From Roseivivax halotolerans (GTDB lineage Bacteria > Pseudomonadota > Alphaproteobacteria > Rhodobacterales > Rhodobacteraceae), in assembly GCF_900115815.1 (NCBI RefSeq), contig NZ_FOXV01000002.1, positions 62,001-126,000 on the forward strand: 64,000 bases of DNA. The letters run 5' to 3'. The notes beneath the pieces were generated by a model. The model did no database searches and was not told the origin of the DNA. It worked only from the letters and a program-made list of their open reading frames with translations. Numbering within the stretch: the first letter of the stretch is position 1; each line of letters begins with the position of its first letter. Below, piece after piece: positions 3,234 through 21,686 of the stretch. The translations under genes and the position numbers were made by a program.

Positions 3234-3235
3234 AA

Positions 3236-3249: not shown

Positions 3250-3318
3250 CGAACTACCCTCCAGGCACAACCCATACACTCGGCACAAGACCGTTTCGAT
3301 TTTTGATGCAATTTTACA

Positions 3319-3346: not shown

Positions 3347-3354
3347 CAGTCCCC

Positions 3355-3788: not shown

Positions 3789-4309
3789 ATAAGCCTCTCA
3801 ATTTATTCATCGACATGCTGTCGGCAGACTTCTTTCGCGCAGAGCGCCCCAGCTTCGACGATTGTTATCGGCGGACATGCGTTCATGCAGTGCGAGCCGA
3901 TATCTCCAAGCCCAGCAGACACCTGGCATTGCGCCTATTGCTCAACGAAGCGCGACTGCGCCAGCTCGACTCCTCGGGGTGTGGAACTGATGAGCGAAGC
4001 TCGGCTCACAATGTCAAAGAACTCGGCCCCTCTAAGGGGTCGATAGGCTCCAGTGGGCGCTTGAACACCCATCGGTGCCGTCAGGATTGTCAGGCGAGTG
4101 ATCGTCTGTCTCCGCCGACAGCTGTCGGCGGAGAAATCTGCCGCGATCGGGCTTCACTGTCCCCCGATCGCCACCTCCCCGGTCGGTCGGGCAAAGCTTC
4201 TTCGAGGCGGGCCGGCCGGGGCTTTTTATTCCTAGGTGACCTCACCGGAGCGCTCGCGCTGTTCGCGATACTCTTCGGTCTGCTCGCTCTCGATTGGGGG
4301 TTGTCGTGA
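3785..4309 (+). CDS. Hypothetical early protein with C-terminal membrane segment
   Basis: An open frame of 174 codons starting with an ATGA overlap. The first ~70 residues look like a genuine basic helical protein. The middle (about residues 75-145) is low-complexity and covers both the 26-bp palindrome at 4109-4134 and a GC-rich hairpin with a T-run (4177-4230). The last 25 residues (LGDLTGALALFAILFGLLALDWGLS) form a convincing transmembrane helix, and the stop lies 5 bp from the end of the convergent gene. It may be one protein, or an upstream gene plus a small membrane protein with an unrecognised start. Function unknown. Confidence 0.4.
   Translation: MNKPLNLFIDMLSADFFRAERPSFDDCYRRTCVHAVRADISKPSRHLALRLLLNEARLRQLDSSGCGTDERSSAHNVKELGPSKGSIGSSGRLNTHRCRQDCQASDRLSPPTAVGGEICRDRASLSPDRHLPGRSGKASSRRAGRGFLFLGDLTGALALFAILFGLLALDWGLS
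4109..4134. repeat. 26-bp perfect palindrome, copy 1 of 3 (core CCGACAGCTGTCGG)
   Basis: The core is at 4115-4128, and perfect symmetry extends to TCTCCG...CGGAGA on both sides. The same core recurs at 13476-13489 and 21635-21648. It is not followed by a T-tract. It lies inside the open frame 3785-4309, where it encodes SPPTAVGGE. Confidence 0.85.
4177..4230 (+). terminator. Possible intrinsic terminator of the first early transcript
   Basis: CCCCGGTCGG (4177-4186) can pair with CCGGCCGGGG (4212-4221), including one wobble pair, followed by CTTTTTATT. It would stop rightward transcription before the convergent gene pair at 4315-4964. It lies inside an open frame, where the T-run encodes GFLFLG, so it could simply be coding sequence. 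Confidence 0.35.
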
Positions 4310-4314
4310 TGTGC

Positions 4315-4848
4315 TCAGCCAGCCTGCGCTTCGCTGACTTTCCGGTACGTATGACCGTCGAAACTCAAGAAGCTGCCAGCAATCCGGTGCAGGAACGGGA
4401 CGACCAGGCGCTCTCCCTGATCATACACCTCCACGGCGTCGAGCGCGTCGTTGTAAGCCTTGGCGTCGATGGCGCGAAGCGTCGGCGGTTCCTCGGCCGT
4501 GATCTCGAACATGCGGCCGCGCCAATGCGCCAGATCAGCCTCGGTCGGATCGGCAAGCTTTTCGATCTCGCTCAGCAGGACGTAGTAGTCGCGCTGGAGG
4601 ATCTGATGATCCCGGGCCTGCCGCCCGAAATCGAGGACGAGCTGAAGCGCGCCGATGAAGGCGACGGCACCGCCGATATAGAGCGCCCCCGCGCCTGCGC
4701 GGGCGGCGAGATCAGCGACCACCGCCGTGCCGAGAAGAATGACCAGGAGATTGCAGATCCGGTTGGCGCGCTCGAGCCAGCGGCGACGCGCCGTGTGGTA
4801 GAGCGCGTTTCTCAGAACGTTGAAACGGATTATCTCGCGGTCATTCAT
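4315..4848 (-). CDS. SLATT-domain-like two-helix membrane protein
   Basis: 177 aa. After FNVLRNALYHTARRRWLERANR come two hydrophobic helices (about residues 30-48 and 53-70), then ALQLVLDFGRQARDHQILQRDYYVLLSEIE and the AEEPPTLRAIDAKAYNDAL motif. This pattern fits SLATT domains, membrane modules often paired with nucleotide-based immune sensors. Here there is no neighbouring nucleotidyltransferase. The gene is transcribed against the phage early operon, with the 36-aa gene at 4854 just upstream, and has its own AAGGA site. It is probably a cargo gene expressed from the prophage, with superinfection exclusion as a possible role. The family call is from pattern recognition only. Confidence 0.65.
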   Translation of the reverse strand: MNDREIIRFNVLRNALYHTARRRWLERANRICNLLVILLGTAVVADLAARAGAGALYIGGAVAFIGALQLVLDFGRQARDHQILQRDYYVLLSEIEKLADPTEADLAHWRGRMFEITAEEPPTLRAIDAKAYNDALDAVEVYDQGERLVVPFLHRIAGSFLSFDGHTYRKVSEAQAG

Positions 4849-4853
4849 CTTGA

Positions 4854-4964
4854 TCAGTCCTTTTTGGGCGGCGGCGCCTGCTCCGGTTTGAGCTTCGAAG
4901 GTTGGCGTGGACCTGCAGATTTCTTTGTGGGGCCTTCGCCGGAAATGGGTTTCTTCTCAGACAT
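4854..4964 (-). CDS. 36-aa Pro/Lys-rich peptide
   Basis: Starts MSEKKPISGEGPTKK and ends APPPKKD; highly charged and proline-rich, probably disordered. An AGGAGA ribosome-binding site lies 8 nt before the ATG, and it ends 5 bp upstream of the SLATT-like gene, so the two form a leftward operon. Function unknown. The good ribosome-binding site and tight spacing are the only evidence that it is translated. Confidence 0.5.
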   Translation of the reverse strand: MSEKKPISGEGPTKKSAGPRQPSKLKPEQAPPPKKD

Positions 4965-5073
4965 CGTATTCGTCTCCTCTGAGCTGAGGTTGGAGGGGTC
5001 GATAGGTGCCGGCGGGCGCGGATTCGCCTGCTGGCACCGCCAACATAGCACAAAATGTGGCGATCCGTTTCAG

Positions 5074-5094
5074 AACAGAACGCTATATTCTGTT
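5074..5094. promoter_or_regulatory. Inverted repeat in divergent promoter region
   Basis: AACAGAA (5074-5080) and TTCTGTT (5088-5094) are separated by 7 bp between the leftward 4964 gene and the rightward 5120 gene. A TATATT hexamer lies inside. It is a candidate operator for divergent transcription; no regulator can be named. Confidence 0.45.
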
Positions 5095-5119
5095 TGTTGC
5101 GCCATGGGAGGTACTTGCC

Positions 5120-5356
5120 ATGCGTGATCCCCTCGCTGATTTCGACGCGCTTGTCCGCTCGCTTCGCGACGCGAGCGAGCACCGCGCCAAAGCCAAGGCG
5201 AGCGCGGGCAACGAGCCGCACAAAGCGTTCGAAGACACGCTGGCCGAGGCGTCGCTCGTCGAGGCTGTAGATGCCTTCGAGCGCCTGTCTCACGAAAGCG
5301 AAATCCTCGACGACATCCGCGCGATGCTTGTCGTCATCTACGGGGGTGACGCCTGA
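5120..5356 (+). CDS. Small helical early phage protein
   Basis: 78 aa, acidic and helical (DPLADFDALVRSLRDASEHRAKAKAS...). The ATG at 5120 is preceded by GGGAGG with 8-nt spacing. No family recognised. It begins the second rightward early operon (5120 through 13472), in which nearly all genes overlap. The stop overlaps the next ATG (TGATG). Confidence 0.65.
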   Translation: MRDPLADFDALVRSLRDASEHRAKAKASAGNEPHKAFEDTLAEASLVEAVDAFERLSHESEILDDIRAMLVVIYGGDA

Positions 5357-5586
5357 TGCATGCCGCTCCGCTCTCATCCCCCCGCCTGCAGCGACTTCTT
5401 CGCGTCCTGAAGGACGGGAAACCGCACACCACGAAGGATATCGCGCGCCGTGCGCATCTCCTGGCGATCAGCGCCGCGGTCGCCGAGCTGCGCCAGCACG
5501 GCGCGAAGATCATTTGCGAGCGCAAGAAGGTCGGCGACGACTGGCGCTTTTTCTACACGATGCTGGAGGCCCCTAAGAATGCGTGA
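5356..5586 (+). CDS. Small winged-helix-like early protein
   Basis: 76 aa. LQRLLRVLKDGKPHTTKDIARRAHLLAISAAVAELRQHGAKIICERKKVGDDWRFFYTM reads as a helix-turn-helix followed by a beta wing, as in small phage helix-turn-helix proteins that recognise DNA. The start overlaps the previous stop and its 3' end overlaps the ParB-like gene. The target is unknown. Confidence 0.65.
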   Translation: MHAAPLSSPRLQRLLRVLKDGKPHTTKDIARRAHLLAISAAVAELRQHGAKIICERKKVGDDWRFFYTMLEAPKNA

Positions 5587-6439
5587 AGCTCGTCGGATCG
5601 AAGGCGTGACCGAAGTTCCTGTCGCCGAAGTTCTCGAACGCAATCGTCTGCGTCCGGTATCTGATGCAGGCGTCGCCGCGCTGATCTCCTCGATCGAGGA
5701 TATTGGCGGGATCACCTACCCAATCCAGGTGCGCCAGGTCCGGCATCGCGAGAATGAGCTCGTGCTGATCGCGGGCGCGCATCGGCTCGAAGCTGCGCGG
5801 CGTCTGGAGTGGACGACGATCCCCGCGATTGTCTGGGACTGCGCCGACGACTGGGCTCGGCTGGTCGAGATCGATGACAATGTCGGCGGCTCGGAACTCA
5901 CGGCTTTGGACACCGCGATTTTCCTGGCCGAACGAAAGGATGTCTATGAGCGCTTGAACCCTGGCGCGAGGCACGGTGGCGACCGTCGGAGCGATCAAGT
6001 GGAACTCGGTTCCGTTTGGTCATTCGCCGCAGCGACAGCGGAGAAATATGGCATCTCGGATCGTCAGGTCCGCAAGCTCGTCTCGGCAGGCAAGGCGCTG
6101 GCCCCCGATGAGCGTACCCGGCTCAGAACAGCCCCGAAGCCAGTCTCGCTCGCAGATCTGCAAGCGATCGGAAAGATCACGAATCCGCCCGAGCGCTATC
6201 ACGTTGTCGGCGCGCTCGCGGAGGGTACCGCCAAAAGCGCCGCCGATGCACGTCGGTCTTGGAAGGCCCGGGATCTCCCCAAGACGGAGACGCCCAGTCC
6301 CGCCGAGAAGCTCCTCGACCAGCTTTGGAAACTCTGGTCGCGCGCATCCTCTGGAGTGAAGCGACGGTTCGTTGAGCGCCACCTTGACGAGATTGCCGAA
6401 CTTGTCGCCGAGATCGACGAGGGCTGGTCAGACGCATGA
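5579..6439 (+). CDS. ParB-like N-terminal domain protein
   Basis: 286 aa. Residues 8-100 match the ParB/sulfiredoxin-type N-terminal domain (VPVAEVLERNRLRPVSDAGVAALISSIEDIGG, then LIAGAHRLEAARRLEW). A central helix-turn-helix follows (YGISDRQVRKLVSAGKAL), and the C-terminus is helical. Related proteins precede the transposase in many Mu-like phages, where they may regulate or assist transposition. Plasmid-type partition is not implied because no parA is present. The start at 5579 overlaps the preceding gene by 8 nt. The GARHGGDRRSDQ motif is typical of this phage subgroup. Confidence 0.8.
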   Translation: MREARRIEGVTEVPVAEVLERNRLRPVSDAGVAALISSIEDIGGITYPIQVRQVRHRENELVLIAGAHRLEAARRLEWTTIPAIVWDCADDWARLVEIDDNVGGSELTALDTAIFLAERKDVYERLNPGARHGGDRRSDQVELGSVWSFAAATAEKYGISDRQVRKLVSAGKALAPDERTRLRTAPKPVSLADLQAIGKITNPPERYHVVGALAEGTAKSAADARRSWKARDLPKTETPSPAEKLLDQLWKLWSRASSGVKRRFVERHLDEIAELVAEIDEGWSDA

Positions 6440-8598
6440 GTGACGTCGCGCAACCCAAACAGATCTGGTGGAGCGTCTCGGAGCTTGCCGAAGCGCGTCT
6501 TCCCGGGCTGCCGGGGACGCGACAGCGGATCAATGCTTTAGCCAAACGACAGCAATGGACTTCGTACGCGGACAAGGCACGACGCAAAGTAGGCGGAGGA
6601 GGCGGCTGGGAATATCACTGGACGCTCCTGCCGCTTGAGGCGCGCGCCAGGCTCTTGAAGGATGCCAGCGCCGGTGCTGCGATCGATGCGATCGCGCAGT
6701 CATCGCTCGATCTCGCCGAGCGCCACTATGCCTTCGAACAGCTGTCCGAGCGCGCGAAGCAAACCGCACGCAAACGGTTGCGCATCCTCAACGCCGTCAT
6801 GGCCCAGGAAGCCGCTGGGCTCGGCAAGGATATCGCCGTGCGCGAAGTGGCGCGAGCCGAGGGCTGCGCGGCTCGCTCGATCTGGAACTGGTTCGACAAG
6901 GTTCTCGGCGTTGAGCGCAGCGATTGGCTGCCCTGTCTCGCGGATGGGCGCGGCCTGGTCCGGCGGGACAGCGGGCGCAAGGAGATCGATCCGGAGTTCA
7001 TGGAGGTCTTCAAGGCCGATTACCTACGCTTTGAAGGACCCGGTATCAGTTCGGCCTATCGCCGCGCTGTCCGCGTCTGCGAGGCACAAGGCATTGAGTG
7101 TCCGCCGGAAAGCCGCCTGCGCCGGCATCTCGACGCCGAGGTGCCGCGCGTGTCGCAGATCTATCAGCGCGAAGGTCTGACCGGCCTGCAGAAATGCTAT
7201 CCGCCGCAGATCCGCGACCGGACCGGCATGACGGCGATGGAGGGCGTGAACGCAGACTGCCACAAGTTCGATGTCTTCGTGCAATGGGAGGGCCGCGATA
7301 AGCCAGCCCGTGCCCAGCTCGTTGCCTTCCAGGATATCTATTCGGGCAAGATCCTCAGCTGGCGGATCGATCACACCCCGAACAAGGTCATGGTGATGGC
7401 CGCCTTCGGCGACATGATCGACAATTTCGGCATCCCGAAACACGCCCTTTTCGACAACGGCCGCGAGTTCGCGAACAAGTGGCTGACTGGCGGCGCAGAT
7501 ACGCGGTTCCGCTTCAAGATCCGCGAGGATGATCCGCTCGGCGTTCTGGCCCTCCTCGGCATCGATATCCACTGGGCGACACCCGGCCACGGCCAGGCCA
7601 AGCCGATCGAGCGTGCTTTCCGCGACCTCGCCGAGGACATCGCCAAGGATCCGCGCTTCGCCGGTGCCTATGTCGGCAACAGGCCAGATGCCAAGCCGGA
7701 GAATTACGGCTCACGCGCGATCCCGATCGACGATTTCATCGCTATCGTCGCCGAAGGCATCGATGCGCATAACGCGCGCCAGGGTCGCCTGTCGCAGACC
7801 GCCAACGGGCGCAGCTTCGACGAGACCTTCGCGGCGAGCTACGCCAATGCGCCGATCCGCAAGGCTGCGATCGAGCAGCGCCGGCTCTGGCTGATGGGTC
7901 AGGAGCCCCGGAAGCTGCATGCAAACCATGGCGAGCTGACGCTCTTCAAGAACAAGTACTGGGCCGATTGGATGGCCGAGCATGCCGGTCAGCAGATCGT
8001 CGCGCGCTTCAATCCGGCCGATCTGCATTCCGGGGCCGAAATCTACGATCTCAAGGGCCGCTACCTGGGCTTCGCCGCCTGCCGCGAGGCGGTCGGGTTC
8101 TTTGACCTCACCGAGGCGCATGACAAGGCGCGTCAGGATGGCCAGATCCGCCGCGCGCAAAAGCAGCTCGCACAGGCGATCAATCCCGGCAGCGTCAAGG
8201 ACGTGGCAACAAGGCTCGACGAGCTCGCGCCGGAGGAGCCGGCTGCAGCCGAGGCTCGTGTCGTGCGCCCGACCTTTGGCGATCCGGCGCAGACTGACGG
8301 CGCGAGTGTGCGCAAGCCGGCTCTGCCGACACCGGACACATCGCCCGAGGCCCAAAGCGAGCATTCCGCCTTCGTCCATGTCTTCTACGGCAAGCAGGGC
8401 CGCAAGAAGCCGGAGACGGTCGAGGACGAGGCACGCTCCCGGTTCCGCCGGGCGCTGGACGTCGAGGCGCGTAGCGAGGCCGGAGAGCGCATCGGAGAGG
8501 CCGAGGCGAAGTGGCTCCAATCCTACCAGGAGACGCCCGAATACCGGCAGCTCCGCAACATGTACGAGAAATTCGGGGAGCGGCTGCTTCTCGGGTGA
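6436..8598 (+). CDS. Mu-type DDE transposase (A protein)
   Basis: 720 aa. The N-terminus (WWSVSELAEARLPGLPGTRQRINALAKRQQW) is the MuA winged-helix DNA-binding domain. The catalytic core carries Asp274 (NADCHKFDVFV), Asp340 (LFDNGREFANK) and Glu392 (AKPIERAFRDL), with spacing nearly identical to MuA's DDE triad. A beta-barrel domain (IVARFNPADLHSGAEIYDL) and a C-terminal helical region expected to contact the B ATPase follow. It cuts and joins the phage ends for integration and replicative transposition, acting on the TGCAGTGA repeats at both ends. It overlaps the ParB-like gene by 4 nt (ATGA). Confidence 0.97.
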   Translation: MSDVAQPKQIWWSVSELAEARLPGLPGTRQRINALAKRQQWTSYADKARRKVGGGGGWEYHWTLLPLEARARLLKDASAGAAIDAIAQSSLDLAERHYAFEQLSERAKQTARKRLRILNAVMAQEAAGLGKDIAVREVARAEGCAARSIWNWFDKVLGVERSDWLPCLADGRGLVRRDSGRKEIDPEFMEVFKADYLRFEGPGISSAYRRAVRVCEAQGIECPPESRLRRHLDAEVPRVSQIYQREGLTGLQKCYPPQIRDRTGMTAMEGVNADCHKFDVFVQWEGRDKPARAQLVAFQDIYSGKILSWRIDHTPNKVMVMAAFGDMIDNFGIPKHALFDNGREFANKWLTGGADTRFRFKIREDDPLGVLALLGIDIHWATPGHGQAKPIERAFRDLAEDIAKDPRFAGAYVGNRPDAKPENYGSRAIPIDDFIAIVAEGIDAHNARQGRLSQTANGRSFDETFAASYANAPIRKAAIEQRRLWLMGQEPRKLHANHGELTLFKNKYWADWMAEHAGQQIVARFNPADLHSGAEIYDLKGRYLGFAACREAVGFFDLTEAHDKARQDGQIRRAQKQLAQAINPGSVKDVATRLDELAPEEPAAAEARVVRPTFGDPAQTDGASVRKPALPTPDTSPEAQSEHSAFVHVFYGKQGRKKPETVEDEARSRFRRALDVEARSEAGERIGEAEAKWLQSYQETPEYRQLRNMYEKFGERLLLG

Positions 8599-8664
8599 GA
8601 GTGCCGCCGCCCGGGACCCTCCTCCCGAGCGACGGCGTGTTGAGCAGTTACAACAGAGGTGAAA

Positions 8665-9408
8665 ATGCCAGACGACACACCACTCTACAATAGCCTCGCA
8701 CCGCTGCGGAACGTCTCCGCGCTCGCGGCGCTCGTGGACCGGCTGAAGAACCGCGCGCATGGGCTGCCGGGCATGGCGACGTTCTATGGTCCCTCGGGCT
8801 ACGGGAAGACGACGGCCGGCACCTACGTGACCAACGAATTCGACGCGGTCTGCGTCCAGGTGAAATCCACCTGGACGCAGAAGAAGCTCTGCGAGGCCAT
8901 CCTGTCCGAGATGTCGGTGCCCCCGCACCGCATGACGATCAGCGACATGGTCGACCGGATCAGTGCCACGCTCGCCGTCACGGACGCGCCGCTCCTGATC
9001 GACGAGGCAGACTTCCTGGTCAAGCGCCGCATGATCGAGATCGTGCGCGACTTCCACGAAGGCTCGGGCGCACCCGTGATCCTGATCGGTGAAGAGCTAC
9101 TGCCCCAGAAACTCAAGCAATGGGAGCGCGTTCACGGCCGGATGCTTGACTGGGTGGCCGCGCAGCCGGCGGATACGCGCGATCTTTCAGCGCTGATGCC
9201 GATCTACGCACCAGGCATCGATATCGCGAGCGAGCTGCAGGATCGGCTTATGAAGGCCGCGAACGGCTCGATCCGGCGGATCTGCGTCAATCTCGAGATG
9301 GTGCGTGAGTTCGCGCGGCTCGAGGGGCTCGACGCCGTCACGCTCGAGGACTGGGGCAAGAAGCAATTCTGGACCGGCGAAGCACCGGGACCGCGGAGGG
9401 GCGTGTGA
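8665..9408 (+). CDS. MuB-like AAA ATPase, target-DNA activator
   Basis: 247 aa from the ATG at 8665 (AGAGG just upstream; an in-frame GTG at 8659 is an alternative). The Walker A motif GPSGYGKTT is at residues 42-50, and the Walker B motif is in APLLIDEADFL. The C-terminal helical domain contains ANGSIRRICVNLEMV. MuB-type ATPases coat target DNA, stimulate the transposase and give target immunity. It is shorter than Mu B (312 aa) because it lacks the N-terminal helix-turn-helix extension, as in many alphaproteobacterial Mu-like phages. It sits 66 bp after the transposase. Confidence 0.92.
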   Translation: MPDDTPLYNSLAPLRNVSALAALVDRLKNRAHGLPGMATFYGPSGYGKTTAGTYVTNEFDAVCVQVKSTWTQKKLCEAILSEMSVPPHRMTISDMVDRISATLAVTDAPLLIDEADFLVKRRMIEIVRDFHEGSGAPVILIGEELLPQKLKQWERVHGRMLDWVAAQPADTRDLSALMPIYAPGIDIASELQDRLMKAANGSIRRICVNLEMVREFARLEGLDAVTLEDWGKKQFWTGEAPGPRRGV

Positions 9409-10205
9409 TGAGCGATCAGTCACCAACCCGTCGCCAGGCGCTCTGGGATCTCCTGCGCACTGAGGGCACACTCACCCCGGCCGCCGCAGCTGAAGCCGGC
9501 ATCCCGCTCAACACCGCCCGGATGTACTTCGCCGAATGGAAGCGCAACGGCGCGATCGTTCTCGATCACCAGGACGGCAAGACCCGCTTCTTCCGCGCGG
9601 CACAGGACACCGCAGAGGCCCCGCGCGAGATCCGCACCGAGGTCGCCGAGGATGATCCGCGCGCGCATCGCCAGATCGCCTGGGATCTCTTGTGCGAGGC
9701 GGAAACGGTCAGCGTGCCCGATCTCATTGAGATCGGCCTGCATCGGAACACGGCCGAGCTTGCGCTCAATCACTGGCTCGAGGCCGAAGCGATCCGGTTC
9801 TCGCACAGAGACGGCAAGGTCCGGTTCTACACACGCGTACTCGACACCGACACGGCCCCCGCCTTCACGCGCAGCGATCACCGTCTCGCCCCGCGCGAGC
9901 GGCGCGCCAAGAAGCTCTGGACCGCTGCGCGCATGCTCAAGACGTTCACTCCGCGCGATGTTGCGGCGCACGCGGCCACGTCAGAGACCGAGGTGTCGAT
10001 CGACGATGCCACGCGCTTCTGCCGGATGCTTCTGCGCGCGGGGTACGTGCGCGTCCTGCGCAAGGCACGTCCGAGCGACGGCGTCGAGCCGCGCTACCGC
10101 CTGACCCGCGATACCGGCCCGAAACCGCCCATCGAAAAGCGTGTCCGCGCGGTCTGGGACGAGAACGAGGGTTGCTTCACGCATCTGCCGGAGACCGCGT
10201 CATGA
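9408..10205 (+). CDS. Triple winged-helix early phage protein
   Basis: 265 aa. Two clearly related helix-turn-helix units are seen (RRQALWDLLRTEGTLTPAAAAEAGIPLNTARMYFAEW, and HRQIAWDLLCEAETVSVPDLIEIGLHRNTAELALNHW), each followed by a wing ending DGK(T/V)RF(F/Y). A third, more diverged unit (AARMLKTFTPRDVAAHAATSETEVSIDDATRFCRML) follows. It is presumably a DNA-binding regulator of early replication genes; no named family recognised. ATG 9408 overlaps the ATPase stop, and a GTG three bases earlier is an alternative start. Confidence 0.7.
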   Translation: MSDQSPTRRQALWDLLRTEGTLTPAAAAEAGIPLNTARMYFAEWKRNGAIVLDHQDGKTRFFRAAQDTAEAPREIRTEVAEDDPRAHRQIAWDLLCEAETVSVPDLIEIGLHRNTAELALNHWLEAEAIRFSHRDGKVRFYTRVLDTDTAPAFTRSDHRLAPRERRAKKLWTAARMLKTFTPRDVAAHAATSETEVSIDDATRFCRMLLRAGYVRVLRKARPSDGVEPRYRLTRDTGPKPPIEKRVRAVWDENEGCFTHLPETAS

Positions 10206-10579
10206 GCCGGGTAGAGGCAGCACGCGACGCATGGGGCAGCGCCCTGCCCGATTGGATCGAGGCGCTCGCCGCCGAATGCGACCGCACGAGCCAGAACCAG
10301 GTGGCAACGCGCCTCGGCAAGTCCGGCGCGCTCGTGAGTCAGGTCCTGCGCGCGCGGTACCCGGCCCGCCTCGATCCGATCGAGGAACTCGTCCGGGGGA
10401 TCCTGATGAAGGCGACGGTCGATTGCCCGGCGCTCGGCCGCCTGCCGCTCAACGAGTGCCAGGCATGGCGGCGCAAGGCGACGGCGTTTCAGGGCAGCAA
10501 CACGCTGCGCGTCCAGATGTACCGCGCCTGCCACCGCTGCCCGATTTTCAAGAACGGAGGCACGACGGATGCGAGCTGA
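10202..10579 (+). CDS. Small HTH phage regulator with CxxC
   Basis: 125 aa. The central segment TSQNQVATRLGKSGALVSQVLRARYPARLDPIEELVRGIL is an XRE-like helix-turn-helix. The C-terminus carries ACHRCPIF and an earlier Cys in NECQAW, possibly a metal site. It overlaps the previous gene by 4 nt and the next by 11 nt. Similar small regulators occur in this position in Mu-like phages; the target is unknown. Confidence 0.65.
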   Translation: MSRVEAARDAWGSALPDWIEALAAECDRTSQNQVATRLGKSGALVSQVLRARYPARLDPIEELVRGILMKATVDCPALGRLPLNECQAWRRKATAFQGSNTLRVQMYRACHRCPIFKNGGTTDAS

Positions 10580-11948: not shown

Positions 11949-11952
11949 ACCG

Positions 11953-12434: not shown

Positions 12435-12436
12435 CC

Positions 12437-13472: not shown

Positions 13473-13500
13473 CCCCCGACAGCTGTCGGCGGAGATCGCG
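13473..13500. promoter_or_regulatory. Palindromic element copy 2 of 3, upstream of lysis genes
   Basis: Core CCGACAGCTGTCGG at 13476-13489. All 28 bases are identical to 21632-21659. It lies between the activator stop (13472) and lysozyme ATG (13552), the place of Plys in Mu. There is no T-tract, so it is not a normal terminator. Candidate late-activator binding site. Confidence 0.7.
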
Positions 13501-13551
13501 CGCCCCTGACATGCGATCTCGGGACCTGTTCCTAAGGTTCCGGAGAAGATC

Positions 13552-14265
13552 ATGAGCAATCTGACCGATGTCGCCGAGATCACCGACCGTGGTCTCCTCG
13601 AAATCGCCGAGCATGAAGGCATCGTGCCTGCCCCCTACCGCGACAGCGTCGGCGTCTGGACCTGGGGGCTTGGTCATACCGCAGCGGCCGGCGGGCCGGA
13701 CCCATCCAAGATGAACCGCGCCATGCCGAACGATATCGACGCCGCGATCGAGGAGGTGCTCGACCAGTTCCGGATCGACGTCGCCCGCTATGCCCGGCGC
13801 GTCGGCGATGCCGTGAAGGTCGCCTTGAAGCCCTATGAGCGCGATGCCCTGGTGAGCTTCGATCTCAACACTGGCGGCATCTACCGCGCCAAGCTGACGG
13901 CCGCGATCAATCGCGGCGACGCGGATGCCTCGCGCCATTTCTTCGGCTGGCTGAAGCCGCCGGAGATCCGCAAGCGCCGCACGGCCGAAAAGCGGCTCTT
14001 CGAGACGGGTGACTATGATGCCAACGGCGACGAGATCGCGATCTGGCGCACCAACGGCCAAGGCAAGCTCCTGGGCGTGATGACGACGATCCGGGGCGGC
14101 GAGCTTCTGGAGCGCCTGCACGGCAAGCCGGTGCCGGACGCTGGCCTCGAGCCGCTGCCCGATCTGGAGCCGGTCGACGAGGCTCTGCGCCAGGTGGAAG
14201 CCCGCACCCTTGATCTGGCAGATTCCGTCGCCACCATGCGCCAGAAATTCGACGGGGTCGCGTGA
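13552..14265 (+). CDS. GH24 phage lysozyme (endolysin)
   Basis: 237 aa. The T4-type catalytic set is visible with canonical spacing: Glu22 (EHEGIVPAPYRD), Asp31 and Thr37 (SVGVWTWGLGHT). It cleaves peptidoglycan glycan strands at the end of the lytic cycle. No signal peptide or SAR anchor is seen, so it should depend on the holin-like membrane proteins encoded next to it. A C-terminal tail (PVDEALRQVEARTLDLADSVATMRQ) is extra and probably coiled-coil. Ribosome-binding site CGGAGAAG lies 5 nt before the ATG. First gene of the late block. Confidence 0.93.
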   Translation: MSNLTDVAEITDRGLLEIAEHEGIVPAPYRDSVGVWTWGLGHTAAAGGPDPSKMNRAMPNDIDAAIEEVLDQFRIDVARYARRVGDAVKVALKPYERDALVSFDLNTGGIYRAKLTAAINRGDADASRHFFGWLKPPEIRKRRTAEKRLFETGDYDANGDEIAIWRTNGQGKLLGVMTTIRGGELLERLHGKPVPDAGLEPLPDLEPVDEALRQVEARTLDLADSVATMRQKFDGVA

Positions 14266-15214: not shown

Positions 15215-15576
15215 ATCTCGAAATCCTCAAATCGGTTGAGGTGGTCATCGGCTTGATCGTCCTGTTCTTCGGTGCATTCGCCGCTCTCGTGCGCTGGGTC
15301 TGGGGCAAGGTATCGATCAAGGTCGCCTCGAGCGTCGACCCGCTCGCGGTCAGCAGCCGGAACGTTGTCAAGCGGCTCGAGGACGTCGAAGGCGATGTCC
15401 GCGCGCTCAAGCAGCAACTCGCGGCGGTCGAGAAGAGCTTGGGCGGAATGGCTCGGCACGAAGACCAGCAGAAGCTCGCGATCACCCTGGCGCGTGTCGA
15501 GGAGAGATCTCTAGCGAGCGACCAGAAGCTCGACACGCTCTACCGGGCGATCATGGACCGGGCGCCCAGAGGATGA
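15199..15576 (+). CDS. DUF2730 family membrane-anchored coiled-coil protein
   Basis: 125 aa: one N-terminal transmembrane helix (VEVVIGLIVLFFGAFAALVRWVWG), followed by a coiled coil (VVKRLEDVEGDVRALKQQLAAVEKSLGG...). This is the DUF2730 pattern, present in the same place in Mu-like phages. A spanin-like or lysis-accessory role has been suggested from topology only. An internal ATG at 15208 is an alternative start. Confidence 0.7.
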   Translation: MARMVDLEILKSVEVVIGLIVLFFGAFAALVRWVWGKVSIKVASSVDPLAVSSRNVVKRLEDVEGDVRALKQQLAAVEKSLGGMARHEDQQKLAITLARVEERSLASDQKLDTLYRAIMDRAPRG

Positions 15577-15890
15577 CGGACTTCCTGGCAGAATGGGCGG
15601 CGAGCGCCACCCGGATCGAGACGCAGAAGCGCCGCCTGGAAGCGCTGCGCTTCCTTGCGAAGATCCCGGGATACCGCGCCTCGGCCAGCCTCATCCGCCA
15701 CGAATGTCATCGCCTCGGCGTGCCCACGACTAGTGACCAGATGATCGGCGCTCTGACATGGCTCGACGAGAATGACCTCGTCGCCCTCGAAGGTGTCGAG
15801 GACGCGATCGTCGCCCGGCTGACGCCACTGGGCCGTGACGTCGCATCGGGCCAGAAACTCTATCCCGGGGTCCTGCGCCCCGACCCTTGA
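15573..15890 (+). CDS. Winged-helix phage protein, Mu gp26-like, copy 1
   Basis: 105 aa. RRLEALRFLAKIPGYRASASLIRHECHRLGVPTTSDQMIGALTWLDENDLVALE has a winged-helix shape, and the C-terminus ends LYPGVLRPDP. The downstream neighbour is clearly homologous (ending LHPGVKRPSP), so this is a tandem duplication. Small winged-helix proteins precede the small terminase in Mu-like phages; a DNA-binding role in packaging or late regulation is possible. Confidence 0.65.
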   Translation: MTDFLAEWAASATRIETQKRRLEALRFLAKIPGYRASASLIRHECHRLGVPTTSDQMIGALTWLDENDLVALEGVEDAIVARLTPLGRDVASGQKLYPGVLRPDP

Positions 15891-15902
15891 AGGAGACCTT
15901 GA

Positions 15903-16193
15903 ATGGACAACGAAACCACCCTTCACCGCCGCCTGGCGATCCTGCGCCATCTCGAGAAGGCGGCGGATTACACGGCGAACTCCTCGATCCTCCTCGACGT
16001 CGTGCGCGGCGTCGGTGTCAGCTCGACCGAGGATCAGCTCCGGAGCGCGCTTGCCTGGCTCGACGAGCAGGAGCTGATCACGCTCACCGATCTCGAGACG
16101 GTGTCGGTTGCGACCGCCACGACGCGCGGGGTCGATGTGGCGCTCGGCCGGGCGCTGCATCCGGGCGTCAAGCGGCCGAGCCCGAGGGGCTAA
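15903..16193 (+). CDS. Winged-helix phage protein, Mu gp26-like, copy 2
   Basis: 96 aa, paralogue of the gene just upstream: LHRRLAILRHLEKAADYTANSSILLDVVRGVGVSSTEDQLRSALAWLDEQELITL aligns throughout without gaps, and the PGVxRPxP ending is shared. An AAGGAGA ribosome-binding site precedes the ATG. It lies 3 bp before the small terminase gene. Confidence 0.65.
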   Translation: MDNETTLHRRLAILRHLEKAADYTANSSILLDVVRGVGVSSTEDQLRSALAWLDEQELITLTDLETVSVATATTRGVDVALGRALHPGVKRPSPRG

Positions 16194-16196
16194 GCG

Positions 16197-16736
16197 ATGC
16201 CGCCGCCCCGCAAGGTCGATCTTCTTCCCTCCGAGATCCGCGACTGGCTCCAGGAGGAGCTGAAGCTGCGCGGCTTCGGCGGCTACGAGGAGCTGGCCGA
16301 GGCGCTGAACTGGCGTCTCGAGGAGGCCGGGCTCGAGCTCCGGATCGGCAAGTCGGCGCTCCACGCCTACGGCTCGGAGTTTCGCGAATACGCCCAGCTC
16401 CAGGAGCAGGCCCAGGACGAGATCCGCGCCTTCCTGGCGGATGCCTCGCTCGGGCAAGAGATCGACGTCACCAAGGCGCTCTTCCAGCAGCTGACCACAA
16501 TCGCATTTCGCGTGCAGATGGCCATGGCGACGGCGAACGAGCTGCCGGATCCGCGCGGGATGAAGGATCTGACCACGGCGCTCAACAATCTGATCCGCTC
16601 GACCGAGCTCCGCGACAAGATCGCGGCCGAGGAGCGCCAGGCGATGAGCGAGAAGCTCGCGGCCGCGGAGGCCTCGGGCGATGCAGCAGACCAGGCGGCA
16701 CTTGCGCGCGCCCGGGAAATCATGGGGTTCGACTGA
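16197..16736 (+). CDS. DUF3486 family protein, Mu gp27-like small terminase
   Basis: 179 aa. PPRKVDLLPSEIRDWLQEELKLRGFGGYEELAEALNWRLEEAGLELRIGKSALHAYG is the diagnostic DUF3486 N-terminus, a helix-turn-helix that recognises phage DNA. A long helical region for oligomerisation follows, ending AREIMGFD. It is thought to select phage DNA for headful packaging and hand it to the large subunit at 17261. Unusually, two small genes separate the two terminase subunits here. Confidence 0.85.
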   Translation: MPPPRKVDLLPSEIRDWLQEELKLRGFGGYEELAEALNWRLEEAGLELRIGKSALHAYGSEFREYAQLQEQAQDEIRAFLADASLGQEIDVTKALFQQLTTIAFRVQMAMATANELPDPRGMKDLTTALNNLIRSTELRDKIAAEERQAMSEKLAAAEASGDAADQAALARAREIMGFD

Positions 16737-17017
16737 TGACGACGATGACGATCATATCGCTGATCGCGCTGGCACTGGCGCAGCTGGCCGATGTCTGGAC
16801 AACGATCCGCGGCCTCGAGGCCGGCTACACCGAGACCAATCCGATCATCCGCTGGGCCATGGAGCGGCTCGGCCGGCATGGGTGGATCGCCTTCAAGCTC
16901 GGCGTGGCAGGCGGCCTCGCCTGGCTCGCGCTCTCGCTCAGCATGCCGGTCATTCTGTGGATCGGCGCGGCGCTGACCGGGCTCGTGGCGGTGCGGAATT
17001 ACCGGCTGGTGAGCTGA
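16736..17017 (+). CDS. DUF5658-like small membrane protein
   Basis: 93 aa, three hydrophobic helices. LADVWTTIRGLEAGYTETNPIIRWAMERLGRHGWIAFKLG fits the DUF5658-type pattern (D-x-x-TT, GxxE-NP). It starts by TGATG overlap with the small terminase gene. A membrane protein between terminase subunits is unusual and suggests inserted cargo; function unknown. Confidence 0.6.
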   Translation: MTTMTIISLIALALAQLADVWTTIRGLEAGYTETNPIIRWAMERLGRHGWIAFKLGVAGGLAWLALSLSMPVILWIGAALTGLVAVRNYRLVS

Positions 17018-17018
17018 G

Positions 17019-17264
17019 ATGGGCCTGACCATCGAGCAGATCCGGCAAGCTCGTGGGGCTTATGCCGCAATTCGGCCCGATGGTCGTCGTTTGAGAACGC
17101 GGCGAATGCTGAAAACAGCGCTCTTGGACATGGTCCACGACCACAAAAAGGAGGAGTGGCACCAAGACGGTGTCAGGCTCCGGGTCGATTTCGATATCGC
17201 CATGCAATTCATGCCAGAAGCATTCGATGCGGGATACCGGATCGAGGGGTACAAATTGACATGA
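17019..17264 (+). CDS. Hypothetical protein between terminase genes
   Basis: 81 aa, soluble, basic N-terminal half (IEQIRQARGAYAAIRPDGRRLRTRRMLK), then HDHKKEEWHQDGVRLRVDFDIAMQFMPEAFDAGYRIEGY. No family recognised. Codon use is slightly more AT-rich than the flanking late genes. Its stop overlaps the terminase ATG (ATGA). Confidence 0.55.
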   Translation: MGLTIEQIRQARGAYAAIRPDGRRLRTRRMLKTALLDMVHDHKKEEWHQDGVRLRVDFDIAMQFMPEAFDAGYRIEGYKLT

Positions 17265-18649
17265 GCAAGACACCATCCGTCATCGACTGGCTGCCCTATC
17301 AGCGCGCATGGATCGAGGACCGGGCGCGCTTCAAGATCGGGATGTTCACTCGGCGCGGCGGCAAGACCTTCGGCTCTTCGGGCGAGATCGTCGACGAGTG
17401 CATCCGCGCCGAGATGGAGCGACGGCGCGTGCGTTGGACGATCCTCTCGCGCTCGGACAACACGGCGAAAGAGGCACTCGAGGACGCGCTGAAACCGATC
17501 ACGCGCGCCTTCTGGGCGGTCTACAACGAGGTCTCCAAGCTTGGCGGTGAGCCCGAGTTCGGCGAGGACACGTTCTATAGCCGCGAGCTCGATGCGACCT
17601 ACAAGACCCACGAGGTGCGCTTCCCGGGCGGCAGCCGCGTCGTCGCGATCTCCGCGAGCCCCGACGCGGCGCGCGGTTTCGGCGGCAATCTTCTCCTCGA
17701 CGAGTTCGCCTTCCACCAGGACAGCCGGCGCATCTGGGCCTCCGCCTTCCCGGTTGCGGCGCGCGGCGGTCACAAGATCCGCGTGATCTCGACCCCGAAC
17801 GGCAAGGGCAACAAGTTCTACGAACTGATGACCACCGAGGATAATGGCTGGTCGAAGCATCACGTCGATATCTACGAGGCGGTGCGCCAGGGCCTTGATG
17901 TCGATATCGAACAGCTGCGCGCCGGCATGGCCGACGAGGATGCCTGGGCGCAGGAATTCGAGCTCAAATGGCTCGACGAGGCCTCGTCCTGGCTGAGCTA
18001 CGATCTGATAGGCGAATGTGAGCGCGAAGGCCTTGGCGCGCCGCGCCGATACCTGGGCGGGCCGTGCTTCGTCGGTATCGACATCGCCGCCCGTAACGAC
18101 CTCTTCGTGATCTGGGTTCTCGAGAAGGTCGGCACGAAGCTCCTGACCCGCGAGGTGATCGCCAAGCGCCGGATCACCTTCGCCGAGCAGGACATGCTCC
18201 TCGACGATGTCATGCGCCGCTATCACGTGGTCCGCGTCCGGATGGACCAGACCGGCATGGGCGAGAAACCCGTCGAGGACGCCAAGCGACGGCACGGCCA
18301 GGAGCGCGTCGAAGGCATCCTCTTCACCGCCACGGCCAAGCTCGACATGGCGACGGGCATGAAAGAGCGGATGCAGGACCGCGAGCTTCTCCTGCCGCTC
18401 GGGGACCCGGAAATCCGCTCGGACCTGCATGCGGTCAAGAGCCGCGTCGGCCCGACCGGTGCGCGCCGCCTCATCGCCGATGACAGCTCGGACGGTCACG
18501 CCGACCGCTTCTGGGCGCTCGCCCTCGCCTCGAGCGCGGCCGAGCTCGACTATCAGCCCTATGCCTACCAGCCCGTGCGCATGGGCCAGGACATGGATCG
18601 CGACATCGCCGTCACCGGCGGCTTCAGAACAAGGGAGGGGGTCTGGTGA
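17261..18649 (+). CDS. Terminase large subunit (Mu gp28-like)
   Basis: 462 aa, start at 17261. N-terminal ATPase: P-loop-like TRRGGKTF (residues 30-37) and Walker B LLLDE (144-148) with the adjacent FAFHQD, then a coupling motif in VISTPNGKGN. C-terminal RNase H-like nuclease: GIDIAARNDLFV, RMDQTGMG and DGHADRFWALALA supply the acidic residues. It powers headful DNA packaging through the portal and cuts the DNA. Length matches the family. Confidence 0.93.
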   Translation: MSKTPSVIDWLPYQRAWIEDRARFKIGMFTRRGGKTFGSSGEIVDECIRAEMERRRVRWTILSRSDNTAKEALEDALKPITRAFWAVYNEVSKLGGEPEFGEDTFYSRELDATYKTHEVRFPGGSRVVAISASPDAARGFGGNLLLDEFAFHQDSRRIWASAFPVAARGGHKIRVISTPNGKGNKFYELMTTEDNGWSKHHVDIYEAVRQGLDVDIEQLRAGMADEDAWAQEFELKWLDEASSWLSYDLIGECEREGLGAPRRYLGGPCFVGIDIAARNDLFVIWVLEKVGTKLLTREVIAKRRITFAEQDMLLDDVMRRYHVVRVRMDQTGMGEKPVEDAKRRHGQERVEGILFTATAKLDMATGMKERMQDRELLLPLGDPEIRSDLHAVKSRVGPTGARRLIADDSSDGHADRFWALALASSAAELDYQPYAYQPVRMGQDMDRDIAVTGGFRTREGVW

Positions 18650-20181
18650 GCCAGCTTCTCGATCAGAACGGCCAGCCCGTGCGCCGAAAGGAACTTCTCG
18701 AGATGCAGTCCGAACCGCGTCTTGCGGGGATCCGGAATGCCTTCGCCGAGACCGTCGCCGCCGGGCTCACGCCGCAGAAGCTCGCCAATATCCTGCGCGC
18801 CTGCGACCAGGGCGAGATCACCGAGTTCGTGACGCTCGCCGAAGAGATCGAGGAGCGCGACCCGCATTACTTCTCGGTCCTCGGTACGCGCAAGCGGGCG
18901 GTCTCGGGCGTGGCGCCCCGCGTCGAGCCCGCTGGCGAAGACGCCGCCTCGCGGCGGATCGCCGAGGCAGTGAACGAGCGGATCGCAGAGCATGAGGAGT
19001 TTCCCGATCTCGTCGAAGATCTGCTCGACGCGCTCGGCAAGGGCTTCTCCCTCGTCGAGATCGACTGGCACCGATCGGGGCGCGAGTGGTGGCCTGGCAG
19101 CTTCCGGCATGTCGATCCGCGCTTCGTGATCTTCGATCGAGAGACGGGGCGCGAGATGCGTCTCATCGACGATGAGGACCCGGCCAACGGCATTCCGCTC
19201 ACGCCTCTCGGCTTCATTCAACACCGCGCCAAGCTCAAATCCGGCCTGACCTTCCGGGGCGGCATGGCGCGCGTCGCGGCCTTCAGCTGGATGTGCAAGG
19301 CCTACACGCTCAAGGACTGGACGGCCTTCGTCGAAACCTACGGTCTGCCGCTGCGCCTCGGCCGCTACGATGCCGGGGCGACGAAGAAAGACCAGGAGAT
19401 GCTCCTCCGTGCCGTCGCCAATATCGGCACGGATGCCGCGGCGATCCTGCCGAAGTCGATGGAGATCGACTTCACCGAGACCAAGGCCACGGGCGGCGAC
19501 AAGGTCTTCGAGAACCTTGCGCGCTATGTCGACGAGCAGATCTCGAAAGCCGTGCTCGGTCAGACCATGACCAGCGACAACGGCTCCAGCCAGGCGCAGG
19601 CCAAGGTCCACAACGAAGTGCGCCACGATATCGCGCAGGCCGATGCGCGCGGGGTCACCGGCTCCATCAATCGAGATCTCGTCCGTCCCTTCGTCGATCT
19701 CAATTTCGGTCGGCCGGCGGACGGACAATACCCGCGCCTCGTCATTCAGATCGAGGAGGCCGAGGACACCGACAAGGTCATGCAGAACGTCCACCGGATG
19801 GCGCGGCTTGGCACGCGCTTTTCTCAGGCGGATGTGCGCAGCCGGCTCGGTTTTGCAGAGCCCGACCCCAAAGAAGAGATCATCGGCGGTCCGCGCAAAT
19901 CAGCCCGATCGCAGCCCACGGAAGAGATCGCCCGGAACGCGGCCGAGACGCCGTTCGACGATCTCGACCTTCTCGAGCGCGAGATGTCCGAGGATTGGGA
20001 GCCGGTAATCCGCCCGATGGCAGATCCGATCGACGCCGCGATCGAGACCGCCGAGAGCTTTGAGGACGCGCTTGCAAAACTCGAGGCCTTGCGCCCCGAG
20101 ATGTCCTCGGCCGAGCTGATCGATCGCCTGGTAAAAGGCATGGTGAAAGCGCGCGGCCTCGGGGACGCGCGGGATGACTGA
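18646..20181 (+). CDS. DUF935 portal protein (Mu gp29-like)
   Basis: 511 aa, GTG start overlapping the terminase stop (GTGA). The pattern REEL...SEPRLAGIRNAFAETVAAGLTPQKLANILRACDQGEITEFVTLAEEIEERDPHYFSVLGTRKRAV, and later YVDEQISKAVLGQTMTSDNGSSQAQAKVHNEVR, is that of DUF935. Twelve copies form the ring at the capsid vertex through which DNA passes. Followed by the gp30-like minor head gene with an 8-nt overlap. Confidence 0.92.
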   Translation: MSQLLDQNGQPVRRKELLEMQSEPRLAGIRNAFAETVAAGLTPQKLANILRACDQGEITEFVTLAEEIEERDPHYFSVLGTRKRAVSGVAPRVEPAGEDAASRRIAEAVNERIAEHEEFPDLVEDLLDALGKGFSLVEIDWHRSGREWWPGSFRHVDPRFVIFDRETGREMRLIDDEDPANGIPLTPLGFIQHRAKLKSGLTFRGGMARVAAFSWMCKAYTLKDWTAFVETYGLPLRLGRYDAGATKKDQEMLLRAVANIGTDAAAILPKSMEIDFTETKATGGDKVFENLARYVDEQISKAVLGQTMTSDNGSSQAQAKVHNEVRHDIAQADARGVTGSINRDLVRPFVDLNFGRPADGQYPRLVIQIEEAEDTDKVMQNVHRMARLGTRFSQADVRSRLGFAEPDPKEEIIGGPRKSARSQPTEEIARNAAETPFDDLDLLEREMSEDWEPVIRPMADPIDAAIETAESFEDALAKLEALRPEMSSAELIDRLVKGMVKARGLGDARDD

Positions 20182-21385
20182 GTTTCCCGATCGCCCGGGC
20201 TACAGCTTCGATCCCGGCCCGCCACCTGAGGTCGCGCGGTTCTTCGCGAACAAGGGCATCGCGCCGTCGTTTTCCTTCCAAGACGTCGAGCCGGCAGAGC
20301 ACGCCGTCTCCTTCGTCGTCGCGAAGATGGCGCAGGAGGACATGCTCTCGGCCGCGAAGGGCGAAGTGCAACGCGCCATCGACGAGGGGATGACCTTCGA
20401 GGCTTTCAAGAAGAGCTGGCGCGGCAATGCAGCACTCAAAGAATGGTGGGGCCGCGAGGTCCAGACCGATCCGGTGACGGGCCAGGAGCGCATCGTCCAG
20501 CTCGGCTCGCCGCGCCGCCTGCGCACGATCTACCGCGCCAATCTGCGCGCCGCCCGTGCCGCCGGGCAATGGGAGCGGATCGAGCGGACGAAACGCGCGA
20601 TGCCCTATCTCGAGTATCGCCTCGGCCCCTCCGAGCGGCACCGCCCGCACCATGTCGCCAAGGAAGGGCTCGTGCTGCCGGTGGACGATCCTTTCTGGGA
20701 TGATTGGATGCCGCCCAATGGCTGGGGCTGTAAATGCTGGGTGCGCCAGATCACCCGCCGCGCAGCCGAGGAAAAGGGCATCTCGCGATCGCCAGGCAGG
20801 GAGACCCGCGAGTTCATCAATCCGCGCACCGGCGAGGTGAAGGACGTGCCCGTCGGGCTCGATCCAAGCTGGGACCGCAATCCCGGCAAGCTGCGCCGCC
20901 AGCACATGGAACAGCTCCTCGAAGGCAAGCTCTCGGCCGCAAGCGAGCCCGAGGCGCGCGCCGCACTTCGCGACATGGCCTCGAGCTGGGCCGTGCAGCG
21001 CGTCCTCCAGGGCCGCTCGGATGCGGCCGTGCCAGTGGCGCTGATGCCGCCCGAGATCGGCGCGGCGCTCGGCAACCAGGCGCGCTTTGTCCGGATCACC
21101 GATCGGACCGGACAGACAATCGGCGCGCAATCCGGCGCAGCCGTGACCCCGGAGGTGATGGCGCGCGTCTCCGATGCCCTGGTCGAGGGGCCGCTGGCCG
21201 AAGAGACCGACGCGGAGGGTCGCAGGAGCCTCGCGATCCTCGTCGACGGGCCGGACGCATGGGAAGCGATCGTCACATCGCTCCCCGAGACCGACGAGCT
21301 CTGGATCAGCGCCGTGCGCCAGACGAGCCGCGCCGAATGGCGCGAGCGGCTGGCGCGCGAAACCCGCACGCTTTTGAGGGAATAA
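20174..21385 (+). CDS. Phage head morphogenesis protein (Mu gp30/F-like)
   Basis: 403 aa. The central SPP1 gp7-type minor head domain is seen from about residue 90 to 200, with LRTIYRANLRAARAAGQWERIERTK, PHHVAKEGLVLPVDDPFWDDWMPPNGWGCKCWV and a CxC within it. The C-terminal ~150 aa contain a further domain (VRITDRTGQTIGAQSGAAVTPEVMARVSDALV) of unknown function. Minor head proteins act in prohead assembly and DNA injection. Confidence 0.88.
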   Translation: MTEFPDRPGYSFDPGPPPEVARFFANKGIAPSFSFQDVEPAEHAVSFVVAKMAQEDMLSAAKGEVQRAIDEGMTFEAFKKSWRGNAALKEWWGREVQTDPVTGQERIVQLGSPRRLRTIYRANLRAARAAGQWERIERTKRAMPYLEYRLGPSERHRPHHVAKEGLVLPVDDPFWDDWMPPNGWGCKCWVRQITRRAAEEKGISRSPGRETREFINPRTGEVKDVPVGLDPSWDRNPGKLRRQHMEQLLEGKLSAASEPEARAALRDMASSWAVQRVLQGRSDAAVPVALMPPEIGAALGNQARFVRITDRTGQTIGAQSGAAVTPEVMARVSDALVEGPLAEETDAEGRRSLAILVDGPDAWEAIVTSLPETDELWISAVRQTSRAEWRERLARETRTLLRE

Positions 21386-21686
21386 CCGGGGCAAAACGCC
21401 CAAATTCGCCGCCGAGCCGCAATCTGCATCGAGCGCAACGTCTCAGGACGTCCGTTAAATACCCATTAAAGGGGTCTGTGTGCGCAGGAGCCGATTTTCC
21501 GACCGGGAGGGCGGTTCGGGCATTAAGGGCGCTCCTGAGGCCGCTCAGCGCTTCATCTCTTGGCAGCCGGACGCTCGGTCGCTAGCGTGAAGCTTGGGCG
21601 GGGGTCTCGCAAGATTAGCTTCGAAGCGAATCCCCCGACAGCTGTCGGCGGAGATCGCGAGACTCCCGCCGTCTAGAACGGACCTC
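21386..21686. other. 301-bp non-coding gap before the protease gene
   Basis: No gene is supported here; in a late block where most genes overlap or nearly touch, this is one of two large gaps. It holds an AT-richer patch (TTAAATACCCATTAAAG, 21454-21470), the third palindrome copy, and a long imperfect stem around it. By synteny with Mu it corresponds to the PI late-promoter region. Confidence 0.65.
21597..21670. promoter_or_regulatory. Palindromic element copy 3 of 3 inside a long inverted repeat
   Basis: Core CCGACAGCTGTCGG at 21635-21648 (28-nt shared block 21632-21659). It is flanked by GGCGGGGGTCTCGC (21597-21610) and GCGAGACTCCCGCC (21657-21670), which pair with one mismatch. It lies 17-90 bp upstream of the protease ATG, the position of Mu PI. 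Candidate binding site of the Mor/C-like activator. Confidence 0.7.

Follow-up and report, generated by a model that had tools for sequence, protein, structure and literature searches.

A stretch of 64,000 nucleotides from the genome of Roseivivax halotolerans (contig NZ_FOXV01000002.1, positions 62,001 to 126,000), hereafter the window, contains a Mu-like prophage in which one palindromic element occurs three times. Copies 2 and 3 are very probably the operators of late promoters that are switched on by a Mor/C-type protein encoded in the same prophage. We consider the whole proposal, consisting of one Mor-type activator, two late operators, a recognition code specific to each phage and a leaderless protease messenger RNA (mRNA), to be highly likely. 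In this model, the Mor/C-type protein, encoded where the early gene cluster ends, would bind copies 2 and 3 in place of a -35 element, presumably as a dimer, which the palindromic sites fit, and would activate RNA polymerase at -10-like elements located 32-37 bp downstream of each axis of symmetry. Two operons would thereby be turned on, one led by lysozyme and the other by the head protease, and a single activator would stand in for the relay of Mor and then C in phage Mu. Each phage lineage would possess its own operator sequence, in which position 6 of the half-site, a C, would be read by residue E103 of the activator and the C:G pair of position 3 by R104, and the protease mRNA would begin at or beside its ATG.

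Three copies of one palindrome in a Mu-like prophage

The 14-bp core of the element, CCGACAGCTGTCGG, was matched exactly at 4115-4128 and at two other places in a scan of the window (Table 1). The entire genome of 3,771,129 bases contains just these three exact copies, every one in this prophage, against approximately 0.05 copies expected from base composition. A looser pattern, CCGACANNTGTCGG, gives four matches in the genome, three of which are the prophage copies. When up to three mismatches to the core were allowed, five matches were found in the window against 6.4 expected, so that the additional two, both weak, do not exceed chance. Copies 2 and 3 have 28 identical bases in common, and copy 1 is the longest perfect palindrome of the window with 26 bp, the runner-up having 16 bp. 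Copy 2 begins right behind the stop codon of the mor gene and lies ahead of the lysozyme open reading frame (ORF); in copy 3, 38 bp separate the end of the core from the following ATG of the Mu-I-type protease. An earlier note on this DNA had described the three places of the core, the 28 shared bases, the 26-bp perfect palindrome in the early region, and the location of copy 2 between the Mor/C-like gene and lysozyme and of copy 3 just ahead of the protease gene, all of which was borne out by exact matches, coordinates and profile matches of the neighboring genes. In viral contigs (IMG/VR), the 28-mer was found in a single contig, the available part of which is 100% identical to positions 3597-24571 of the window; this contig represents the same phage and is not independent evidence.

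Table 1. Coordinates of the operators, predicted promoter elements and genes in the window
Feature	Position	Strand	Remarks
Phage repressor (S24-type)	2529-3362		
Palindrome copy 1	4109-4134	.	26-bp perfect palindrome; early region
Terminator-like hairpin with T-run	4209-4230	+	Downstream of copy 1; weak, 3 in 3300-5600 against 1.8 expected
ParB-like protein	5579-6439	+	phrog_3264, E=1.6e-70 (ORF 5450-6439); rival binder, outside the proposed switch
Mor/C-type activator gene mor, 121 aa	13107-13472	+	Overlaps end of early gene cluster; putative recognition helix S101-V102-E103-R104
Putative operator, copy 2	13473-13500	+	28 bp; core 13476-13489, axis 13482.5; probable late promoter ahead of lysozyme; exact match
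Predicted -10 of lys promoter	13515-13520	+	GATCTC with TGC ahead; 32-37 bp from axis; 98.9th percentile of the window
Phage lysozyme	13552-14265	+	First gene past copy 2; PF00959, E=1.5e-16; phrog_7 endolysin, E=1e-23
Putative operator, copy 3	21632-21659	+	28 bp; core 21635-21648, axis 21641.5; probable late promoter ahead of head protease; exact match
Predicted -10 of protease promoter	21674-21679	+	TAGAAC; axis spacing as in aligned protease promoters; 93.7th percentile only
Mu-I-type head maturation protease/scaffold	21687-22655	+	PF10123, E=3.3e-49; phrog_328, E=5.5e-76 (ORF 21594-22655)

The Mor/C-type activator

The prophage shows a Mu-like gene content, which includes an S24-type repressor, a ParB-like protein, MuA, MuB, DUF3164, GemA, the Mor/C-type protein, lysozyme, terminase and the Mu-I-type protease. 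The Mor/C-type protein matches phrog_836, annotated as late transcriptional activator (E=1.6e-20), a profile that also matches 60/60 aligned family members, and by its sequence it is a homologue of the Mor/C family of phage transcription activators. Only one Mor-like ORF was found among ORFs of at least 60 aa on the + strand at positions 1-40000, a search that a highly divergent second one could escape. The known structure of Mor has a C-terminal helix-turn-helix (HTH) behind a dimerization part. In the predicted structure of the window protein, an HTH is formed by helices 88-94 and 99-117, and residues 103 and 104 would be close to the start of the latter, the predicted recognition helix. A Foldseek search with this model placed Mu C (9l0x_I, described in the structure listing as Mu C in a transcription initiation complex) in the top row with an E of only 0.33; the Z of 5.1 over 53 residues is equalled by many unrelated HTH proteins. 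Close relatives by the whole Mor protein were absent from phage records and were represented in viral contigs by the same phage only.

Conserved position and paired sites in related phages

The Mor profile has no stretch conserved enough for contig scans, and relatives were therefore anchored on the terminase TerL and on GemA. At least 80 genome contigs and at least 80 viral contigs were collected via TerL, and at least 80 viral contigs via GemA, several of which were already in the TerL set. This gave 125 protease loci, from which one locus without a usable start and 29 duplicates were removed to leave 95 distinct upstream regions. Slightly different rules yielded 74 operators, 49 of which have a Mor ORF upstream in the same piece; near-identical phages are present among these 49 loci, and collapsing Mor proteins of at least 90% identity gives 46. 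The window's own phage in the viral contigs (L281) was excluded from the locus set, and one locus (G164), in which both sites agree with one another, is nevertheless missing from the operator set.

In a search of 394 family genomes, a close match to the core (up to two mismatches in 21 bases) was found only in the own genome and in one other, G165. This near confinement of the core indicates that position rather than letters is conserved. When the corresponding locations of eight phages, this one included, were inspected by eye, most showed a differing palindrome, perfect or partial, at the same spots. In a first set of 76 distinct upstream regions, for which one start per locus was chosen by profile, 22 have a palindrome with a score of at least 6 whose axis lies exactly at -44.5 from the protease ATG, compared with a median of 0 and a maximum of 4 at the other scanned offsets. 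When the start could be chosen freely, 73 of the 95 distinct upstream regions passed at -44.5 (±1), compared with 9-22 of 94-95 at eight control offsets. On this sequence evidence, the place of the operator is conserved among relatives and its letters are not. The earlier note had suggested a search of Mu-like prophages for the same core and had regarded a lack of conservation among relatives as telling against its idea; sites were indeed found ahead of the protease and after mor, with differing letters.

The two sites of a phage match each other. When each piece, often of about 21 kb, was searched for the best second match of its operator 20-mer, this match was located within 120 bp after the mor stop codon in 44 of the 49 loci and agreed in 15-20 of 20 letters, as opposed to a mean of 0.3 and a maximum of 2 loci for shuffled operators in 20 rounds. 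Sites agreeing in at least 16/20 letters number two in 43 of the 49 pieces, one in four pieces, and three in this phage and one other (L301).

Predicted promoter architecture and protease message

Promoters aligned on the axis of the operator (58 protease promoters, this phage being counted among them, and 32 lys promoters) have a downstream signal in common, namely a hexamer at 32-37. It contains a near-invariant A at 33 (53/58 protease and 27/32 lys promoters) and frequently ends in T (42/58 and 23/32), and a G is found at 30 in 51/58 and 21/32, respectively. This layout reads as a sigma-70 -10 element with an activator in place of the -35 element. The two predicted elements in the window were scored with a -10 model derived from 116 promoters in related phages (Table 1). 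The axis lies 44.5 bp upstream of the predicted start of transcription.

In relatives the protease ATG is at position 44 from the axis, and in this phage at position 45. A Shine-Dalgarno-like word precedes the protease ATG in only 1/74 loci (L158), this phage being one of the 73 without, whereas such a word is present before the gene after the protease in 36/38 cases and before the first gene after the lys site in 27/44. As the ATG coincides with the predicted start of transcription or is 1 bp away from it, and a Shine-Dalgarno word is missing, the protease message is probably leaderless.

Covariation of operators with the recognition helix

Operator letters vary together with residues of the Mor recognition helix, which are numbered here as in the window protein. 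Of the 49 loci, 20 have Arg at residue 104, and position 3 in the left half-site of the protease operator is C in 19 of them, whereas it is A in 29/29 loci with another residue. After near-identical Mor proteins had been collapsed, the counts were 17/18 for Arg with C and 28/28 for non-Arg with A; at the site after mor, read in the same way, they were 18/18 and 25/26, respectively. Glu at residue 103 is accompanied by C at position 6 in 13/13 loci, and Arg at this residue by G in 12/16. Among all Mor columns tested, the strongest for position 3 was R104 (z 11.6, next 7.9) and the strongest for position 6 was E103 (z 9.0, next 8.1). The Mor columns most strongly associated with position 5 are not part of the recognition helix, an association that looks like a difference between clades. 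Arg paired with G, opposite C, and Glu paired with C are chemically familiar.

Covariation was set against the best tree of Mor from which the recognition helix had been left out. On this tree, parsimony requires 10 changes of the Arg state and 9 of the C state, and the agreement of 48/49 loci was not reached in any of 100,000 simulations of independent evolution at five rates (maximum 42). In a control on clade 1 of a smaller set, the best Mor column for position 3 reached 0.78, compared with 0.58 and 0.54 for TerL and the protease. The phage G165, which was found through its operator alone, carries a nearly identical operator directly ahead of its own Mor-like gene, the helix of which, RTVTRYRA, again combines Arg with C. 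Collectively, the joint variation of the operator letters and two Mor residues points to a simple protein-DNA recognition code, in which residues 103 and 104 would contact the two bases.

As a separate observation, three contigs of the G165 genome (L030, L032 and L034) each carry a Mor-like ORF with the operator CCCCCGACACCTGTCGGCGGAGA immediately ahead of it and a match to a major capsid protein after it; the operator copy of L032 is at the end of the contig. This arrangement has the appearance of autoactivation.

Strength of the evidence and alternative explanations

Several results weigh against the proposed activator and its sites. PF08765, the Pfam model of Mor, matches 36/60 aligned members and does not match the window protein at a threshold of 0.001, and the structural model is of modest confidence (pLDDT 72, pTM 0.45). 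The palindrome criterion fails in 22 of the 95 distinct protease upstream regions, and, judging from the control offsets, approximately 9-22 of the 73 that pass could do so by chance. The best second match of the operator lies elsewhere in 5/49 loci (G099, G201, G358, L084 and L293); in G099 it is situated about 88 bp upstream of the lysozyme match and is thus linked there to lys, not to mor. The protease promoter of this phage exceeds the usual length by 1 bp, and its -10 element is weak. With respect to the code, the right half-site of the protease operator follows the rule less closely (Arg/C 15/20, non-Arg/A 26/29), and one locus, L105, violates the R104 rule at the protease site, the left half of its lys site being in conformity. 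Supported branches of the tree provide only four independent pairs for R104, of which three agree and one is unchanged (p 0.25), too few for significance, and the pairs for E103 and R103 on such branches are fewer or less clear. At several other positions in the smaller set, columns of TerL or the protease are equal to or above those of Mor.

The ParB-like protein, which the earlier note had offered as an alternative binder, might use the palindromes in the manner of parS sites, either in segregation or as a regulator. Palindromic sites would suit such a protein, a weak resemblance to phrog_836 (E=1.2e-5) is seen in its HTH region, and it is encoded in 20/20 loci of the set in which 1.5 kb or more is available ahead of the transposase ORF, so that absence of ParB offers no argument against it. 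However, the best single-residue ParB rule for C at position 3 holds in 21/26 phages, compared with 25/26 for Arg at Mor 104, and the rules of the two proteins are equal at position 6 (22/26 each). ParB fits worse than Mor, and partition sites would not need the fixed spacing to -10-like elements that is observed at two late operons; we regard this explanation as very unlikely. A similarly low probability is assigned to binding by the phage repressor or a host factor that would silence the late promoters in the lysogen. Repressors of this kind usually use palindromic operators, and the repressor gene is close to copy 1 in the early region, but the core is not found at the promoter-like site 3319-3346 beside that gene, and a host factor would not account for phage-specific operators that track Mor.

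It is also conceivable that the repeats act at the RNA level, as terminator hairpins or as stems for stability or processing, or that they are general mobile repeats. Perfect palindromes are able to form hairpins, and copy 2 is directly behind a stop codon. Against this, the window gives no Rfam match at gathering thresholds, the core is absent from the remaining genome, no T-run follows copies 2 or 3, and in protease promoters the predicted start comes only after the element. The copies moreover match within a phage and differ between phages in step with a protein residue. We consider an origin of this sort extremely improbable. Operators of Mor-activated late promoters remain the reading that we adopt for copies 2 and 3.

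Comparison with Mu and other phages

The gene order agrees with that of Mu at both places. In the Mu annotation (AF083977), C is followed by a late promoter and lys, as mor is followed by copy 2 and lysozyme here; G is followed by the gyrase cut site, a late promoter and I, and copy 3 likewise precedes a Mu-I-type protease. The late promoters of Mu depend on an activator whose site is located ahead of -10 elements that deviate from the consensus (PMC4461284), and a similar layout is predicted here. At the middle promoter Pm of Mu, a Mor dimer binds to a site with inverted repeats centered at -43.5 in place of -35 (PMC4390567), compared with 44.5 bp ahead of the predicted start for the axis here. 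The Mu site consists of two 5-bp repeats and a 6-bp spacer, whereas the arms here are longer and phage-specific.

Other features depart from Mu. Mu uses Mor for middle and then C for late promoters, and only one Mor-like gene was found here. Similarity of the sequence to Mu Mor is remote, 1rr7 being reached only at E=0.67 with the family profile. In comparison with the C-dependent promoters of Mu, the operators here are strongly palindromic and mostly occur at two sites per piece. Mu I has an annotated ribosome-binding site and an ATG 13 bp past the annotated end of the promoter, and is thus not annotated as leaderless, in contrast to the probably leaderless protease message here. As to equivalents of PP or Pmom, the window contains no further exact core, and the two matches with three mismatches are at chance level; divergent sites are possible.

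At least two Mor-like ORFs were found in six loci from five phages (G145, G038, G097, L151, L275 and L276, of which L151 and L276 belong to one contig), and these loci are nearer to the plan of Mu by this analysis. In G145, G038 and G097, the Mor-like genes are in tandem about 0.4-0.5 kb apart, and may possibly represent a Mor plus a C as in Mu.

The phage records nearest by terminase are Rhodovulum phage vB_RhkS_P1 (KX077179) and the Pelagibaca and Thiobacimonas phages KT381865 and KT381864, with 64-73% identity. In vB_RhkS_P1, a common element was recognized by eye after the Mor-like gene and before the protease; its operator letters differ (CCCCGAAAC.CCATCCCC), and its helix reads VHKLR in a translation made by eye. 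The word "promoter" occurs 0 times in PMC5488378 on the phages KT381865 and KT381864. Among the matches listed in open-licence PMC, as far as titles and the starts of abstracts tell, there was no description of covarying Mor/C operators or of leaderless protease messages.

The earlier note had spoken of a new activator-operator pair controlling a late regulon. Position, spacing, pairing and covariation support such a pair at the places of the Mu promoters Plys and PI, and the word "new" has to be limited, in that the logic of C-dependent late promoters is known from Mu and it is the phage-specific, exchangeable operator that is new. By homology, the activator belongs to the Mor/C kind and would work in the same way, with an apparently shortened cascade and operators that are private to each phage.

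A further element, GTTAAATACCNNTTTAAA, is conserved before the protease and lies at 21454-21471. At least 12/16 letters of the pattern, for which this phage, together with Mu and a few relatives, served as the source, are present in 65/115 distinct 450-bp regions, while random stretches would give 4.4; in only 39/100 pieces is it the best match overall. Mu has 16/16 letters of it in inverted orientation at 17915-17932, about 35 bp from the annotated gyrase cut site, and the element possibly belongs to the central strong gyrase site.

The early-region copy and its neighborhood

Copy 1 carries the right operator arm, CGGCGGAGA, on both sides, which makes it the most symmetric of the three copies. 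Since it shares the core, it is expected to bind Mor as well. In none of seven relatives did a comparison of the early region with the late sites reveal a third copy. A genome-wide search of six genomes or records that have this core type showed two sites per phage where the phage was traceable, and none was identified at an early position; the third matches seen in two of the genomes are a long way from the phage pair or on a different contig. Of the 49 loci, only this phage and one other have a third site, most pieces ending before the early region. Scores for -10-like elements around copy 1 favor neither direction. A rightward transcript from copy 1 would be short because of the downstream terminator-like hairpin, and a leftward one would run toward the early promoter-like site and, in sense, toward the repressor gene. 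A short RNA from copy 1 to the hairpin was considered as a candidate and rejected, as its fold is not unusual (z -1.09) and the -10 score gives no direction. We can only guess, with low confidence, that copy 1 serves as a late antagonist of early transcription or as a titration site.

DNA relatives of the region 3640-4315 amount to short weak matches in five other genomes. A similarity to the MuA I-gamma DNA-binding domain at the start of the ORF 3785-4309 (PF09039, E=6.5e-4) falls narrowly short of the cut-off; this ORF is a possible transposase remnant in the early region. The ORF 4315-4848 on the - strand, between the repressor and parB, encodes a membrane-type protein without a Pfam match, a homologue of which with 61% identity stands beside parB in G358. 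It may be a SLATT-like defence or immunity gene.

Implications

If the proposed switch is correct, part of the late operator could be predicted from the Mor helix, and vice versa, which would provide a testable regulatory code. It would also explain how related Mu-like phages combine one common promoter layout with private control. A broader generalization, toward which we lean slightly, is that activator-operator pairs which are orthogonal to one another occur naturally in large number among Mu-like phages, all built on a single fixed promoter frame, in which residues 103 and 104 set two bases per half-site. Specificity would have been switched repeatedly, with about 10 parsimony changes on the best tree, insulating the late switches of co-resident prophages from one another, and the head protease would be expressed from that promoter as a leaderless message across the group. 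Many possibly orthogonal activator-promoter pairs of fixed geometry may thus be on offer, and a conserved leaderless mRNA is indicated for a head protein of these phages.

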